Origin: Agromyces luteolus
GTDB lineage: Bacteria; Actinomycetota; Actinomycetes; Actinomycetales; Microbacteriaceae
Reading direction: 5' to 3'
Assembly (NCBI RefSeq): GCF_009729855.1
Contig: NZ_WODA01000002.1
Span: 372,001-436,000, forward strand
DNA length: 64,000 nucleotides
Part shown: piece after piece, positions 31,605 to 34,956 of the stretch
Position numbering within the stretch: the first letter of the stretch is position 1
Layout: each line of letters starts with the position of its first letter
Made by a program: the position numbers and the translations under genes
The notes under the pieces: generated by a model
What the model was told of the DNA's origin: nothing
The model's database searches: none
The model's input: the letters and a program-made list of their open reading frames with translations, nothing else

Positions 31605-33038
31605 ATGCAGAGTGTCGCGGAGGCCCTCGACCGGCTCGCGGGTCTGGCGGCCTCGCCGACGGTCGCCACGCTCGCCGACGCCTTCCAGGCGGCCGGCTTC
31701 GAGCTCGCCCTCGTCGGCGGCCCGGTCCGCGACGCGTTCCTCGGCCGGTCGACCAACGACCTCGACTTCACGACGGATGCCACTCCCGACGAGATCCTCG
31801 CGGTCGTGAAGCCGATCGCCGAGGCGCACTGGGACATCGGCCGCGCCTTCGGCACCATCGGCGCGATCGTGCAGGGGCACACCGTCGAGATCACGACCTA
31901 CCGCGCCGACGCCTACGACGGCGCCTCGCGCAAGCCCGAGGTGGTCTTCGGCACGTCCCTCGAGGACGACCTCGTGCGCCGCGACTTCACCGTGAACGCG
32001 CTCGCGCTGCGCCTGCCGCAGCGCACGCTCGTCGACCCGTCGGGCGGCGTCGAGGACCTCATCGGGCAGGTGCTGCGGACGCCCGCCGCCCCCGAGGTCT
32101 CGTTCGGCGACGACCCGCTGCGGATGATGCGCGCCGCGCGCTTCGCGGCCCAGCTCGGGTTCGAGGTCGAACCGGGCACGCTCGGGGCGATGGCCGCACT
32201 CGCGCCCGAGATCGACCGGATCTCGGCCGAGCGCGTGCGCGACGAGCTGTCGAAGCTGCTGTGCACGGGCGCGGCGAGCCGCGGCATCCGCCTGCTCGTC
32301 GACACCGGGATCGCGGCGCGCGTGCTGCCCGAGATCCCGGCGCTGCGACTCGAGATCGACGAGCACCACCACCACAAGGACGTCTACGAGCACAGCCTGA
32401 CCGTGCTCGACCAGGCGATCGACTACGAGGCGTCGCGTGGGGTGCTCGACTCCCCCGACCTCGTGGTGCGCCTCGCGGCGCTGCTGCACGACATCGGCAA
32501 GCCCGCGACCCGGCGGCTCGAACCGGGTGGCGCGGTGTCGTTCCACCACCACGACATGGTCGGCGCGAAGCTGGCGAAGCGGCGGCTGCGCGAGCTGCGC
32601 TTCGACAACGACACCATCAAGGCGGTCTCGCGCCTCATCGAGCTGCACCTGCGCTTCTTCGGGTACACGGACGGCGCTTGGACCGACTCGGCGGTGCGCC
32701 GGTACGTGCGCGACGCGGGCGACCAGCTCGAGCGGCTCCACATCCTGACGCGGGCGGATGTCACGACCCGCAATCGCCGCAAGGCCGACCGCCTCGGCTT
32801 CGCCTACGACGACCTCGAGGAGCGCATCGCGCGGCTCGCCGAGGAGGAGGAGCTCGCCGCGGTGCGCCCCGAGCTCGACGGCCAGCAGATCATGGAGATC
32901 CTCGGCATCCGCCCCGGGCCGGTGGTCGGCGAGGCCTACAAGCACCTGCTCGACGTGCGCCTCGACGAGGGCCCGATCGGTCCGGATGCCGCGCGCGAGC
33001 GCCTGCTCGCCTGGTGGGACGCGCGCGGCGGCGCCTGA
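31605..33038 (+). CDS. cca: CCA tRNA nucleotidyltransferase
   Basis: Adds or repairs the 3'-CCA end of tRNAs; the two tRNA genes in this window lack an encoded CCA. The 477 residues have the nucleotidyltransferase motif LVGGPVRD (Gly38-Asp43) with catalytic DLD (52-54), RRDFTVNAL, the RNA-binding helices after FGDDPLRMMRAARFAAQLGF, and an HD domain (LLHDIGKP, HHHDMVG) typical of the PcnA-type subfamily. It diverges from the DUF6049 gene. Start ATG 31605, leaderless. Confidence 0.96.
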   Translation: MQSVAEALDRLAGLAASPTVATLADAFQAAGFELALVGGPVRDAFLGRSTNDLDFTTDATPDEILAVVKPIAEAHWDIGRAFGTIGAIVQGHTVEITTYRADAYDGASRKPEVVFGTSLEDDLVRRDFTVNALALRLPQRTLVDPSGGVEDLIGQVLRTPAAPEVSFGDDPLRMMRAARFAAQLGFEVEPGTLGAMAALAPEIDRISAERVRDELSKLLCTGAASRGIRLLVDTGIAARVLPEIPALRLEIDEHHHHKDVYEHSLTVLDQAIDYEASRGVLDSPDLVVRLAALLHDIGKPATRRLEPGGAVSFHHHDMVGAKLAKRRLRELRFDNDTIKAVSRLIELHLRFFGYTDGAWTDSAVRRYVRDAGDQLERLHILTRADVTTRNRRKADRLGFAYDDLEERIARLAEEEELAAVRPELDGQQIMEILGIRPGPVVGEAYKHLLDVRLDEGPIGPDAARERLLAWWDARGGA

Positions 33039-33081: not shown

Positions 33082-33149
33082 CGAGAGCGTGTAGTTCCGA
33101 CGAGCGTGATTGCGTACGCAAACGCGCTCGTCGGAAGTACACGCTCTCG
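33082..33149. repeat. 68-nt near-perfect palindrome A (left end of cassette)
   Basis: Arms of 34 nt centred on GCGTACGC. 31 Watson-Crick pairs, one G-T and two mismatches when folded on itself. 57 of 68 positions are identical to palindrome B at 34320-34387, in the same orientation. No U-tract follows, so it is not a simple terminator. Confidence 0.9.
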
Positions 33150-33199
33150 AGGCATTGCCTGGTGTTCATTCGACCGGTCCTCCACACCCGGGTCGGGGA

Positions 33200-34267
33200 A
33201 TGTGGGCGGTGCCGGCGACGTTCGCGACGTCGGTGGATGGTTCTCGCGCCGTCAGTGTCGACGCCGTGGATACCACGGTCGCACCGCGCATCATCCTGAC
33301 TGCCGACGAGCGACGAGCCCCGGCAGGGGATCGATGGGTGCAGCGGGCGGTCACGCACGGTCGTCTGGTACGCATCCGCGCCGGTATCCACGTCGACGCC
33401 GGCGAGTGGGCGGCCTCGGGGCACGATCAGCGAGCGCTCGTCAGGCTCCTCGCTGCGGTCCGAACGCGACGCCAGGGCGCGGTGCTCACCCACGAGTCCG
33501 CAGCGCTCGTGCTCGGCGTCCCGATCGTCGGTCCACGTCCCGACACCGTTCACTTCATCTCGCGGACGGGTTCTGCTCCGCGCAACGAGCGTGGAGTCGT
33601 GTGGCATCGGGCGCGGCTCGGCGACGACGATGTCATCGAACACCGCGGATTCGTGCTGACGAGCCCGGAACGCACCGCGTTCGACCTCGCCCGGACCCGC
33701 CGCTTCGCGTCCGCGACCGTGGCGCTCGACGCGATGCTGGCGGGCCGATACGAACCGGTGCCGGCGCGAGTCGACGGAGCTCGCTTCGTCGAATGTGCTC
33801 CGGAGGAGCTCATACCGGTGGACGAGGACCGACTCGTGGAACGCATCGCAGCCGCGCGGGGTGCCCGAGGCATCCGCGCAGCTCGACGGGCCGTCGAATT
33901 CGCTGATGCGCGATCCGGGTCCCCGGGAGAGTCGCTCAGCCGTGCGCAGATCCACCTGCTCGGATTCCCGGCCCCGCAGCTCCAGGTTCCGTTCGCGCGA
34001 AGCGGCGGCGGGGACGACGTCACCGACTTCCACTGGCGCGAGTACGGGGTCGCCGGTGAGTTCGACGGGTTCGTGAAGTACCACCGCGAGGAGTACACGG
34101 GCGACCTCTCGCCGGAGGAAGTGGTCTGGCGCGAGAAGGAGCGCGAACGCCGACTCCGGCGCGAGCACGGCCTGGAGGTGAGTCGATGGACTTGGGACGA
34201 CGCCCGGACGCCGCAGCTCCTCAAGGCCGAGTTGCTCGCCGCGGGCCTCCCGATCGTCCGCGGCTGA
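33200..34267 (+). CDS. AbiEi-like winged-helix protein with C-terminal PD-(D/E)XK (Vsr/DUF559-like) domain
   Basis: 355 residues from ATG 33200. Residues about 28-75 resemble the AbiEi-type antitoxin wHTH (ADERRAPAGDRWVQRAVTHG then RLVRIRAGIHV). The middle (95-165) has LTHESAALVLGVPIV and TSPERTAFDLAR, usual in this actinobacterial family. From 240 on comes a restriction-endonuclease-like domain: SPGESLSR (Glu244), DVTDFHWREYGVAGEFDGFV with Asp276, Glu287, Asp289 and Lys293. No toxin gene of AbiEii type is next to it, so it is an orphan and may be a nuclease rather than an antitoxin. The start is uncertain (GTG 33266 possible). Bounded by palindromes. Confidence 0.75.
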   Translation: MWAVPATFATSVDGSRAVSVDAVDTTVAPRIILTADERRAPAGDRWVQRAVTHGRLVRIRAGIHVDAGEWAASGHDQRALVRLLAAVRTRRQGAVLTHESAALVLGVPIVGPRPDTVHFISRTGSAPRNERGVVWHRARLGDDDVIEHRGFVLTSPERTAFDLARTRRFASATVALDAMLAGRYEPVPARVDGARFVECAPEELIPVDEDRLVERIAAARGARGIRAARRAVEFADARSGSPGESLSRAQIHLLGFPAPQLQVPFARSGGGDDVTDFHWREYGVAGEFDGFVKYHREEYTGDLSPEEVVWREKERERRLRREHGLEVSRWTWDDARTPQLLKAELLAAGLPIVRG

Positions 34268-34319
34268 CACCTGCGCCACCGCGTGGCATGGTGGGCCGGG
34301 ACACATCACGGCCCGTCCC

Positions 34320-34387
34320 CGAACGCGTGTAGATCCGACGAGCGCAATTGCATACGCAAACGCGATCGTCGCATCTACACGCGCTCG
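34320..34387. repeat. 68-nt palindrome B (right end of cassette)
   Basis: The same element as 33082-33149, with six mismatched pairs of 34. Relative to copy A, pair 5-64 changes A-T to C-G and pair 14-55 changes T-A to A-T, so pairing is kept. It is followed by the rpsF promoter region (TACACT at 34459-34464). Confidence 0.88.
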
Positions 34388-34572: not shown

Positions 34573-34956
34573 ATGCACCAGTACGAGCTGATGGTGATCC
34601 TCGATCCGTCGATCGACGAGCGCACCGTTGCTCCCAGCCTCGACAAGTTCCTCAACGTCATCCGCAACGATGGCGGCACCGTCGACCACGTCGACATCTG
34701 GGGCAAGCGTCGCCTGGCGTACGAGATCAACAAGAAGTCCGAGGGCATCTACGCCGTCGTCGACTTCACCGCCGAGTCCGCGACCACCAACGAGCTCGAC
34801 CGCCAGCTGAACCTCAGCGAGGCCGTCATGCGCACCAAGGTGCTCCGTGCCGAGGAGGCGATCGCCCAGGTCGCCGCCGTGAAGAAGGCCGAGGAGGCGA
34901 AGGCCGCGAAGAAGGCCGCCGCCGCCGCGAAGGCCCCCGCCAAGAAGGACGCCTAG
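34573..34956 (+). CDS. rpsF: 30S ribosomal protein S6
   Basis: A small-subunit protein that binds S18. The 127 residues start [19 protein letters not shown] and have [20 protein letters not shown], with an Ala/Lys-rich tail ([15 protein letters not shown]) typical of actinobacteria. ATG 34573 has AAGGAGG at 34556-34562. First gene of rpsF-ssb-rpsR-rplI. The 305-nt gap before it holds palindrome B and a -10-like TACACT. Confidence 0.98.

Follow-up and report, generated by a model that had tools for sequence, protein, structure and literature searches.

What links a solitary bacterial gene to two long palindromes that stand on either side of it? This question is raised by a locus in a 64,000-nucleotide stretch of the Agromyces luteolus genome (contig NZ_WODA01000002.1, positions 372,001 to 436,000 of the forward strand; this whole stretch is called the window, and coordinates are counted from its first letter). 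A first-pass annotation had described two 68-nt near-palindromes around one gene, and our recount reproduced the coordinates and the degree of identity exactly. Palindrome A, the upstream copy (33082..33149, no strand assigned), and palindrome B, a downstream copy of the same type (34320..34387, no strand assigned), are identical at 57 of 68 positions. The single gene between them (33266..34267, plus strand) has a GTG start at 33266, 116 nt after A, encodes a nuclease-like protein of 333 amino acids and ends with TGA at 34267, 52 nt before B. Our preferred answer, to which we assign a probability of about 0.6, is that gene and palindromes form one system: a stationary, predicted AbiEi-type nuclease would recognise its own palindrome as a duplex array and spread copies of it by cutting.

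Flanking and scattered palindromes

In the window, a 25-base core pattern (up to three mismatches) gave three matches, all within A and B, when 0.00 were expected from window shuffles. The homologue set comprised 89 proteins among the 7992 best candidates, and a family match was present in 51 of the 60 genomes of the genus sample. The best 80 of 566 named loci (from Agromyces, Cryobacterium, Arthrobacter, Naasia, Agreia, Nocardioides and others) were combined with the fetched stretches to 161 distinct loci, 157 of which had both flanks long enough for analysis. For these loci, the upstream 350 bp were compared with the downstream 350 bp, and 4000 mismatched flank pairs served as null. Here, we found a shared flank repeat above the 95% null level at 126 of the 157 loci, and the proportion was alike in genus loci (71/88) and named loci (55/69). 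At stricter settings, 100 loci exceeded the 99% level, 63 the 99.9% level and 42 the null maximum. Moreover, 52 of 68 long-flank loci exceeded the maximum of 272 shifted windows. The null flank pairs, the shifted windows and the 19-nt rule described below exclude chance or a local artefact as origin of the palindromes.

The window's genome (G000; other G numbers denote further genomes) carries ten strong sites of the window palindrome, namely A, B and eight lone copies away from any family gene. When the genus sample was searched at E 1e-5, palindrome A was found in three of the 60 genomes (G000, G007 and G047), and these are exactly the genomes with a close orthologue of the gene (100, 69 and 71% identity). 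A palindrome at many sites unlinked to the gene family, the pattern that the first-pass annotation had held against its own proposal, was not what these searches returned. At the sensitivity used, G000 has one paralogue (35% identical, contig C10), which is bracketed by two copies of a different palindrome; eight sites of that palindrome, including these two, were found in G000. Since the paralogue has its own palindrome pair, two gene-palindrome pairs with unrelated palindromes coexist in one genome. The palindrome of the paralogue also occurs in G025, directly beside its gene. A third palindrome was taken from G023, and the tree led us to expect it in G023, G028 and G053 (this expectation was not recorded in advance); it was found in these three genomes and in G010 and G013 (genes of the same six-row subclade).

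When 13 palindromes were compared with their 13 genomes and G000, two off-diagonal rows appeared among the matches listed, and the number of cognate sites per genome ranged, among the matches listed, from at least 2 to at least 16. Alike palindromes (score above 40) were seen in 14 of 14 protein pairs with more than 80% identity, in 15 of 16 pairs at 70-80%, in 55% of 29 pairs at 60-70%, in 5% of 96 pairs at 50-60% and in 2% of 128 pairs at 45-50%; below, there were none. Because palindrome likeness falls with protein identity, protein and palindrome diverge together. In the genome of Nocardioides nematodiphilus (G063, the genome of locus L132), cognate palindromes are arranged in tandem clusters, repeated about every 60 nt, on contigs C1, C4, C6, C12, C23 and C25.

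Seven of the eight extra sites in G000 were compared with G025, G007 and G047, using the flanks as anchors. G025 lacked the palindrome at all seven sites, although the neighbouring DNA was 86-92% identical, and genome-wide it had no palindrome A match at E 1e-5. With both flanks matched, site s1 was empty also in G007, and site s5 was empty in G007 and G047. For these two sites, the simplest explanation is a gain in the lineage of G000, and the right junction of s1 coincides exactly with the palindrome end. The eighth site, s2, is shared with G007; the six sites other than s2 and s8 were either not found at the orthologous place in G007 or not placeable. In view of these sites, which lack the palindrome in a near relative, it is likely that the protein disperses the palindromes that flank its gene, although enzymes of this kind are not known to do so. 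About 50 nt to the right of s4 (L034), a second palindrome-like stretch of the GAGTGCGCG type was noticed by eye. Stretches of the GAGTGCGCG type flank the cca-site genes of G012 and G022, and no such gene was found in the genome of s4.

By hand count, six of the eight G000 sites lie between tandem genes, two between convergent genes and none between divergent genes; all eight lie after or inside the 3' end of a gene, and s5 is located inside the 3' end of a reading frame. These positions bear on a different reading, according to which the protein is an AbiEi-type repressor with the upstream palindrome as operator and the scattered copies as regulon, while the nuclease domain has decayed or is otherwise employed. 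AbiEi of S. agalactiae binds two and Rv2827c of M. tuberculosis four inverted repeats in their own promoters (PMC7319586), and the palindrome with its four motif sites appears to behave as a duplex site. However, a repressor leaves the downstream copy unexplained, and sites at 3' gene ends, with none between divergent genes, do not suit a regulon. Only two of the eight sites are shared with G007, all seven that were compared are absent from G025, and the catalytic residues are conserved in an alignment of 85 proteins. Thus, we consider the repressor reading unlikely.

Between palindrome A and the start codon there is a TCCTCCACA box (33178..33186, plus strand), which is conserved in the family. 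Its core CCTCCACA was found as exact match on the gene strand in 44 of 150 upstream regions, as compared with 0 of 150 in each of three controls. A position weight matrix trained on the upstream regions matched 127 of 150, but only 8, 17 and 18 of 150 in the controls, and its best match in the 64 kb window is 33178-33186, a site that belongs to the training set. The box is strand-specific and, by eye, is often followed by a second TCCAC-like box about 25 nt later. Scattered site s6 (L036 6049-6150; G000 C12:441748) keeps a TCCTCCACA box beside the palindrome and is probably what is left of a complete unit after loss of the gene. The box and the scattered copies go beyond what had been noted before, as do the second gene-palindrome pair of the paralogue and the rule that holds across the family.

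Architecture of the palindromes

Copy A pairs at 31 of 34 symmetric positions in Watson-Crick fashion and at one further position as G-T, which agrees with the earlier count of 32; in copy B, 28 of 34 positions pair. The two paired changes described before are present: from A to B, pair 5-64 goes from A-T to C-G and pair 14-55 from T-A to A-T. Folded as single strands, both copies were more stable than shuffled sequences (z -9.7 for A, z -7.4 for B), and none of 200 shuffles was as good. A known RNA family was rejected as explanation, since the palindromes gave only three sub-threshold microRNA matches, far under the gathering scores.

Spacing within the arms was analysed in a set derived from the 161 loci, of which 104 had a flank score of at least 48 and 78 of these a palindrome score of at least 14 with an arm of at least 24; removal of near-duplicates left 74 palindromes. 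As these were picked for symmetry, their symmetry profile is biased, but the selection took no account of the 19-nt offset. At an offset of exactly 19 nt within each arm, a fraction of 0.569 of the bases matched versus 0.286 in shuffled arms (z 29), and the second-highest z among offsets 5 to 35 was 5.1, at 25. Nineteen was the best spacing in 46 of the 74 palindromes. The repeated motif spans approximately nucleotides 5-15 and 24-34 from the palindrome centre, and because it covers these two segments, four motif copies follow each other at near-equal steps in the order > > < <. In A and B, the 19-nt repeat has 8 to 11 of 15 matches per arm, with the starts of outer and inner motif 19 nt apart. 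Taken together, 74 otherwise unrelated palindrome sequences share one rule: an arm motif repeated 19 nt apart.

Repetitive extragenic palindromic (REP) sequences and their REP-associated tyrosine transposases (RAYTs) suggest another possibility, in which the protein acts on a single-stranded palindrome hairpin during replication. The strong predicted hairpins would suit this kind of processing, as would a comparison of the two flanking copies in 65 loci, which yielded 51 compensatory pair changes versus about 13 expected (assuming independent sites and one rate). However, in the same 65 loci there were also 50 cases in which both positions had changed without forming a pair, and 320 in which a change on one side broke the pair. 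The first-pass annotation had proposed that base pairing as such is kept between copies, and this part did not hold up: among 15 cognate copies, 84.2% of the cells were paired (83.8% for shuffles), and 6 pairs had changed at both positions (6.9 for shuffles). As there was no covariation above the shuffles, it was discarded as proof of hairpins. In variable columns, pairing is lost at the frequency expected by chance; for this reason, the symmetry is more readily explained by a double-stranded array bound by a symmetric protein assembly than by conservation of a hairpin stem, and the 19-nt tandem motif fits such an array. We regard hairpin processing as improbable, and more so than a repressor.

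The gene, its address and its predicted product

The left neighbour of the unit is cca (tRNA nucleotidyltransferase; 31605..33038, plus strand) and the right neighbour is rpsF (34573..34956, plus strand). The reading frames agree with this placement; both names were taken from the first-pass annotation with no family search. Homologues of cca were found in 59 of the 60 genus genomes. Between cca and rpsF, 23 of these 59 carry a family gene and 23 have a short gene-free gap of 161-244 bp. Two further gaps measured 355 and 458 bp, eight intervals of 813-1136 bp were free of a family gene, and three intervals were not judged because the sequence stretch ended first. In this survey, the rpsF query had been translated 2 nt out of frame, but the interval ends were still found, and the cross-genus check was done in the right frame. 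A cca-rpsF interval that is universal and never lacks the gene, which would have spoken against the original proposal, is thus not what the genus presents.

The same address was found in nine Cryobacterium loci, in Diaminobutyricibacter, in Labedella and in one Microbacterium. On a quick tree of 158 proteins, the cca-rpsF address needs 6 changes versus 31.0 for shuffled labels. The highest protein identity within one genome was 53% (53 pairs, 90 fetched loci, 50 genus genomes), a count that leaves out some weak unfetched matches and the second copy in G055. Judged from these sequence comparisons, the gene has kept one address by descent and has not multiplied, as would be expected of the domesticated element considered before. 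Contig C9 of G055 carries two oppositely oriented copies of a segment that includes cca and the family gene. Scars of gene loss at this address were looked for and rejected: the 33 complete gene-free intervals had no inverted repeats at the threshold used, except 42 nt in G041, and tblastn detected no family remnant in the eight longer gene-free intervals. These eight (G018, G036, G052, G034, G014, G003, G019 and G040) hold other reading frames, which by eye, with no family search, encode lipoprotein-like, methyltransferase-like or membrane proteins, and for this reason cca-rpsF is a variable site for other cargo too.

In the predicted model (pLDDT 94.4), fold comparison assigned residues 5-214 to an AbiEi-antitoxin-like fold and residues 219-329 to a Vsr/EDxHD homing-endonuclease-like nuclease fold, with the catalytic domain of a homing endonuclease as closest nuclease fold. 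These two domains account for the whole confident model, and the protein is predicted to be an AbiEi antitoxin fused to a Vsr/homing-endonuclease-like domain. This supports the AbiEi-type N-terminus and the C-terminal nuclease fold postulated earlier. The residues named at that time correspond, in the 333-aa numbering, to E222, D254, E265-x-D267 and K271; all five are invariant in an alignment of 31 proteins, and in the alignment of 85 proteins E222 is invariant and D254, E265, D267 and K271 are each kept in at least 90%. The N-terminal part was matched by AbiEi models of PADLOC (best E 4.1e-11). No Pfam or NCBIfam family matched the window protein at E up to 1, and none of the Pfam matches (E up to 0.01) obtained for the window protein and for 85 family members was a Y1 transposase model.

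The closest fold in the model and the existence of empty cca-rpsF alleles would be compatible with a homing-type selfish gene, whose nuclease cuts cassette-free alleles so that repair copies gene and palindromes in. However, across several genera the occurrences of the gene at this address group by descent, and it is the palindromes, not the gene, that turn up at new places, which makes homing very unlikely. The AbiEi matches in PADLOC would also suit a defence or toxin-antitoxin gene, with palindromes that merely insulate transcription. As had been noticed before, a toxin partner is lacking: there is no adjacent AbiEii (DUF1814) toxin gene, and cca-rpsF has room for the family gene only (the rest of the genome was not searched for a toxin). 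Insulating terminators have no need for a gene-specific sequence, scattered copies or a 19-nt rule, and our sequence analysis, which allowed no defence test, found no evidence for a defence role. To this explanation we give hardly any credence.

Phage or plasmid cargo was dismissed: no phage record was found, and distant relatives occurred in three Tsukamurella plasmid records. These Tsukamurella tyrosinosolvens plasmids (NZ_LR134451, NZ_LR134465 and NZ_LR134463) encode proteins with 29-36% identity and are typed as non-mobilizable. Another AbiEi-DUF559 gene of G000 (L303, contig C20) lies between 36-37-nt hairpins (CGGATGCCGCGGCCGG...; L303 1215-1250 and 2593-2629), which look like terminators and come without the long palindrome.

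Returning to the stationary nuclease that spreads its own palindromes, the following sequence of events is proposed. The protein would most likely bind the lineage-specific palindrome as a four-site double-stranded array, and its Vsr/EDxHD-like nuclease domain would nick or cut in or beside it. This cut could drive copying of the palindrome via repair or strand transfer. The palindromes would then be miniature non-autonomous mobile elements served by a stationary domesticated enzyme, as is assumed for REPINs and RAYTs. The upstream copy may also allow autoregulation, similar to that of AbiEi antitoxins via promoter inverted repeats (PMC7319586).

Several observations weigh against this proposal. 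No flank pair above the 95% level was found at 31 of the 157 loci, and two DUF559 genes elsewhere in G000 lack such a 68-nt pair, which rules out bracketing of all AbiEi-DUF559 genes. When the palindromes are tested one by one, the arm repeat reaches p < 0.05 in 29 of 78. The flanking copies of the G007 gene are recognisable, yet they are not among the E 1e-5 matches. The palindrome of the paralogue occurs in G012 at a place where no family gene is present, the third palindrome is found at two sites in G047, which has no subclade gene, and G016 holds a subclade gene but no match to this palindrome. Some of the 13 foreign palindromes gave a total of 8 matches in G000 (best E 1.1e-11), and gene-palindrome matching is therefore imperfect. 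For s4 and s7, the comparison with G007 could be anchored on the left flank only; s8 is present in G007 but empty in G025 and G047, so that a loss in G025 is likelier there. Preference for gain over loss is a parsimony argument resting on two sites, s1 and s5. The empty-site comparison gave no clean target-site duplication, and its single clear junction is the right side of s1. In addition, the nuclease domain could be enzymatically inactive. Palindrome similarity agrees with the nuclease part no less well than with the winged helix-turn-helix part, and specificity is therefore not assigned to either of them.

Relation to known systems

If gene and palindromes indeed act together, they may define a new class of actinobacterial palindrome dispersal, in which a fixed AbiEi-Vsr-type nuclease spreads its own palindromes of about 60-76 bp with four duplex sites spaced about 19/20/19 bp. 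This would be an independent invention of the REP/RAYT life without an HUH enzyme, with enzyme and palindrome co-diverging, and we hold it to be slightly more probable than its opposite. It would represent a second, chemically unrelated system with REP/RAYT genomic logic, which would demonstrate more than one evolutionary origin of such a lifestyle. The family supplies matched enzyme-palindrome pairs of unrelated sequence for studies on recognition and spreading, with a built-in prediction of motifs 19 nt apart. It also gains a likely role; in the sources, its members are labelled AbiEi antitoxin-like or hypothetical, and such antitoxin-like names need not mean toxin-antitoxin. In the literature, judged by titles and abstract openings with few subscription papers and no preprint servers, we found no description of AbiEi-like or DUF559 proteins linked to flanking or scattered palindromes, in line with the first-pass annotation, which knew of none.

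Among the systems compared, insertion sequences place near-identical genes with their ends at several positions; here, the 53% maximum of within-genome identity argues against such an arrangement. The EDxHD homing endonuclease I-Bth0305I and Vsr share the catalytic fold according to the model, with residues that differ from the EDxHD motif. In the present family, this domain is fused to an AbiEi-like part and tied to palindromes, and the gene occupies an intergenic position rather than an intron or intein, with no mismatch-repair gene beside it. AbiEi antitoxins of type IV toxin-antitoxin systems (PMC7319586) have the AbiEi-like fold in common with the predicted model. However, the window gene has no adjoining toxin gene and encodes an extra C-terminal nuclease domain, and its repeats stand on both sides of the gene and are scattered over the genome.

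The closest parallel is the REPtron (TnpA_REP/RAYT plus REP/REPIN), compared here on the basis of three sources (PMC8266576, PMC3116915, PMC3733652). According to these, REP-associated transposases do not move, occur as one copy and are linked to palindromes both beside their gene and elsewhere in the genome; REP and RAYT are the known case of scattered bacterial palindromes with a dedicated single-copy enzyme, and the question of how REPs spread has yet to be answered (PMC8266576). In both systems, a vertically inherited single-copy gene has palindromes of its own in the intergenic DNA on either side, and scattered copies are particular to the respective gene lineage; in G000, these lie between tandem and convergent genes, as reported for REPs. 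The suggestion of REP/RAYT-like logic with a different enzyme is supported by flanking and scattered palindromes around a single-copy gene without a Y1 model. The differences concern the enzyme, which is AbiEi plus Vsr/EDxHD-like in the model and an HUH/Y1 transposase in the REPtron, and the palindrome, for which a duplex four-site array with 19-nt spacing is indicated and not a hairpin. The GTAG tag was seen in 3 of 73 palindromes at either end (CGTC in 13 and 5 of 73), at least 2 to at least 16 sites per genome were listed as compared with hundreds of REPs, and the hosts are actinobacterial. Because the HUH/Y1 enzyme class and the GTAG tag are absent, the window system works like a REPtron but is not one.
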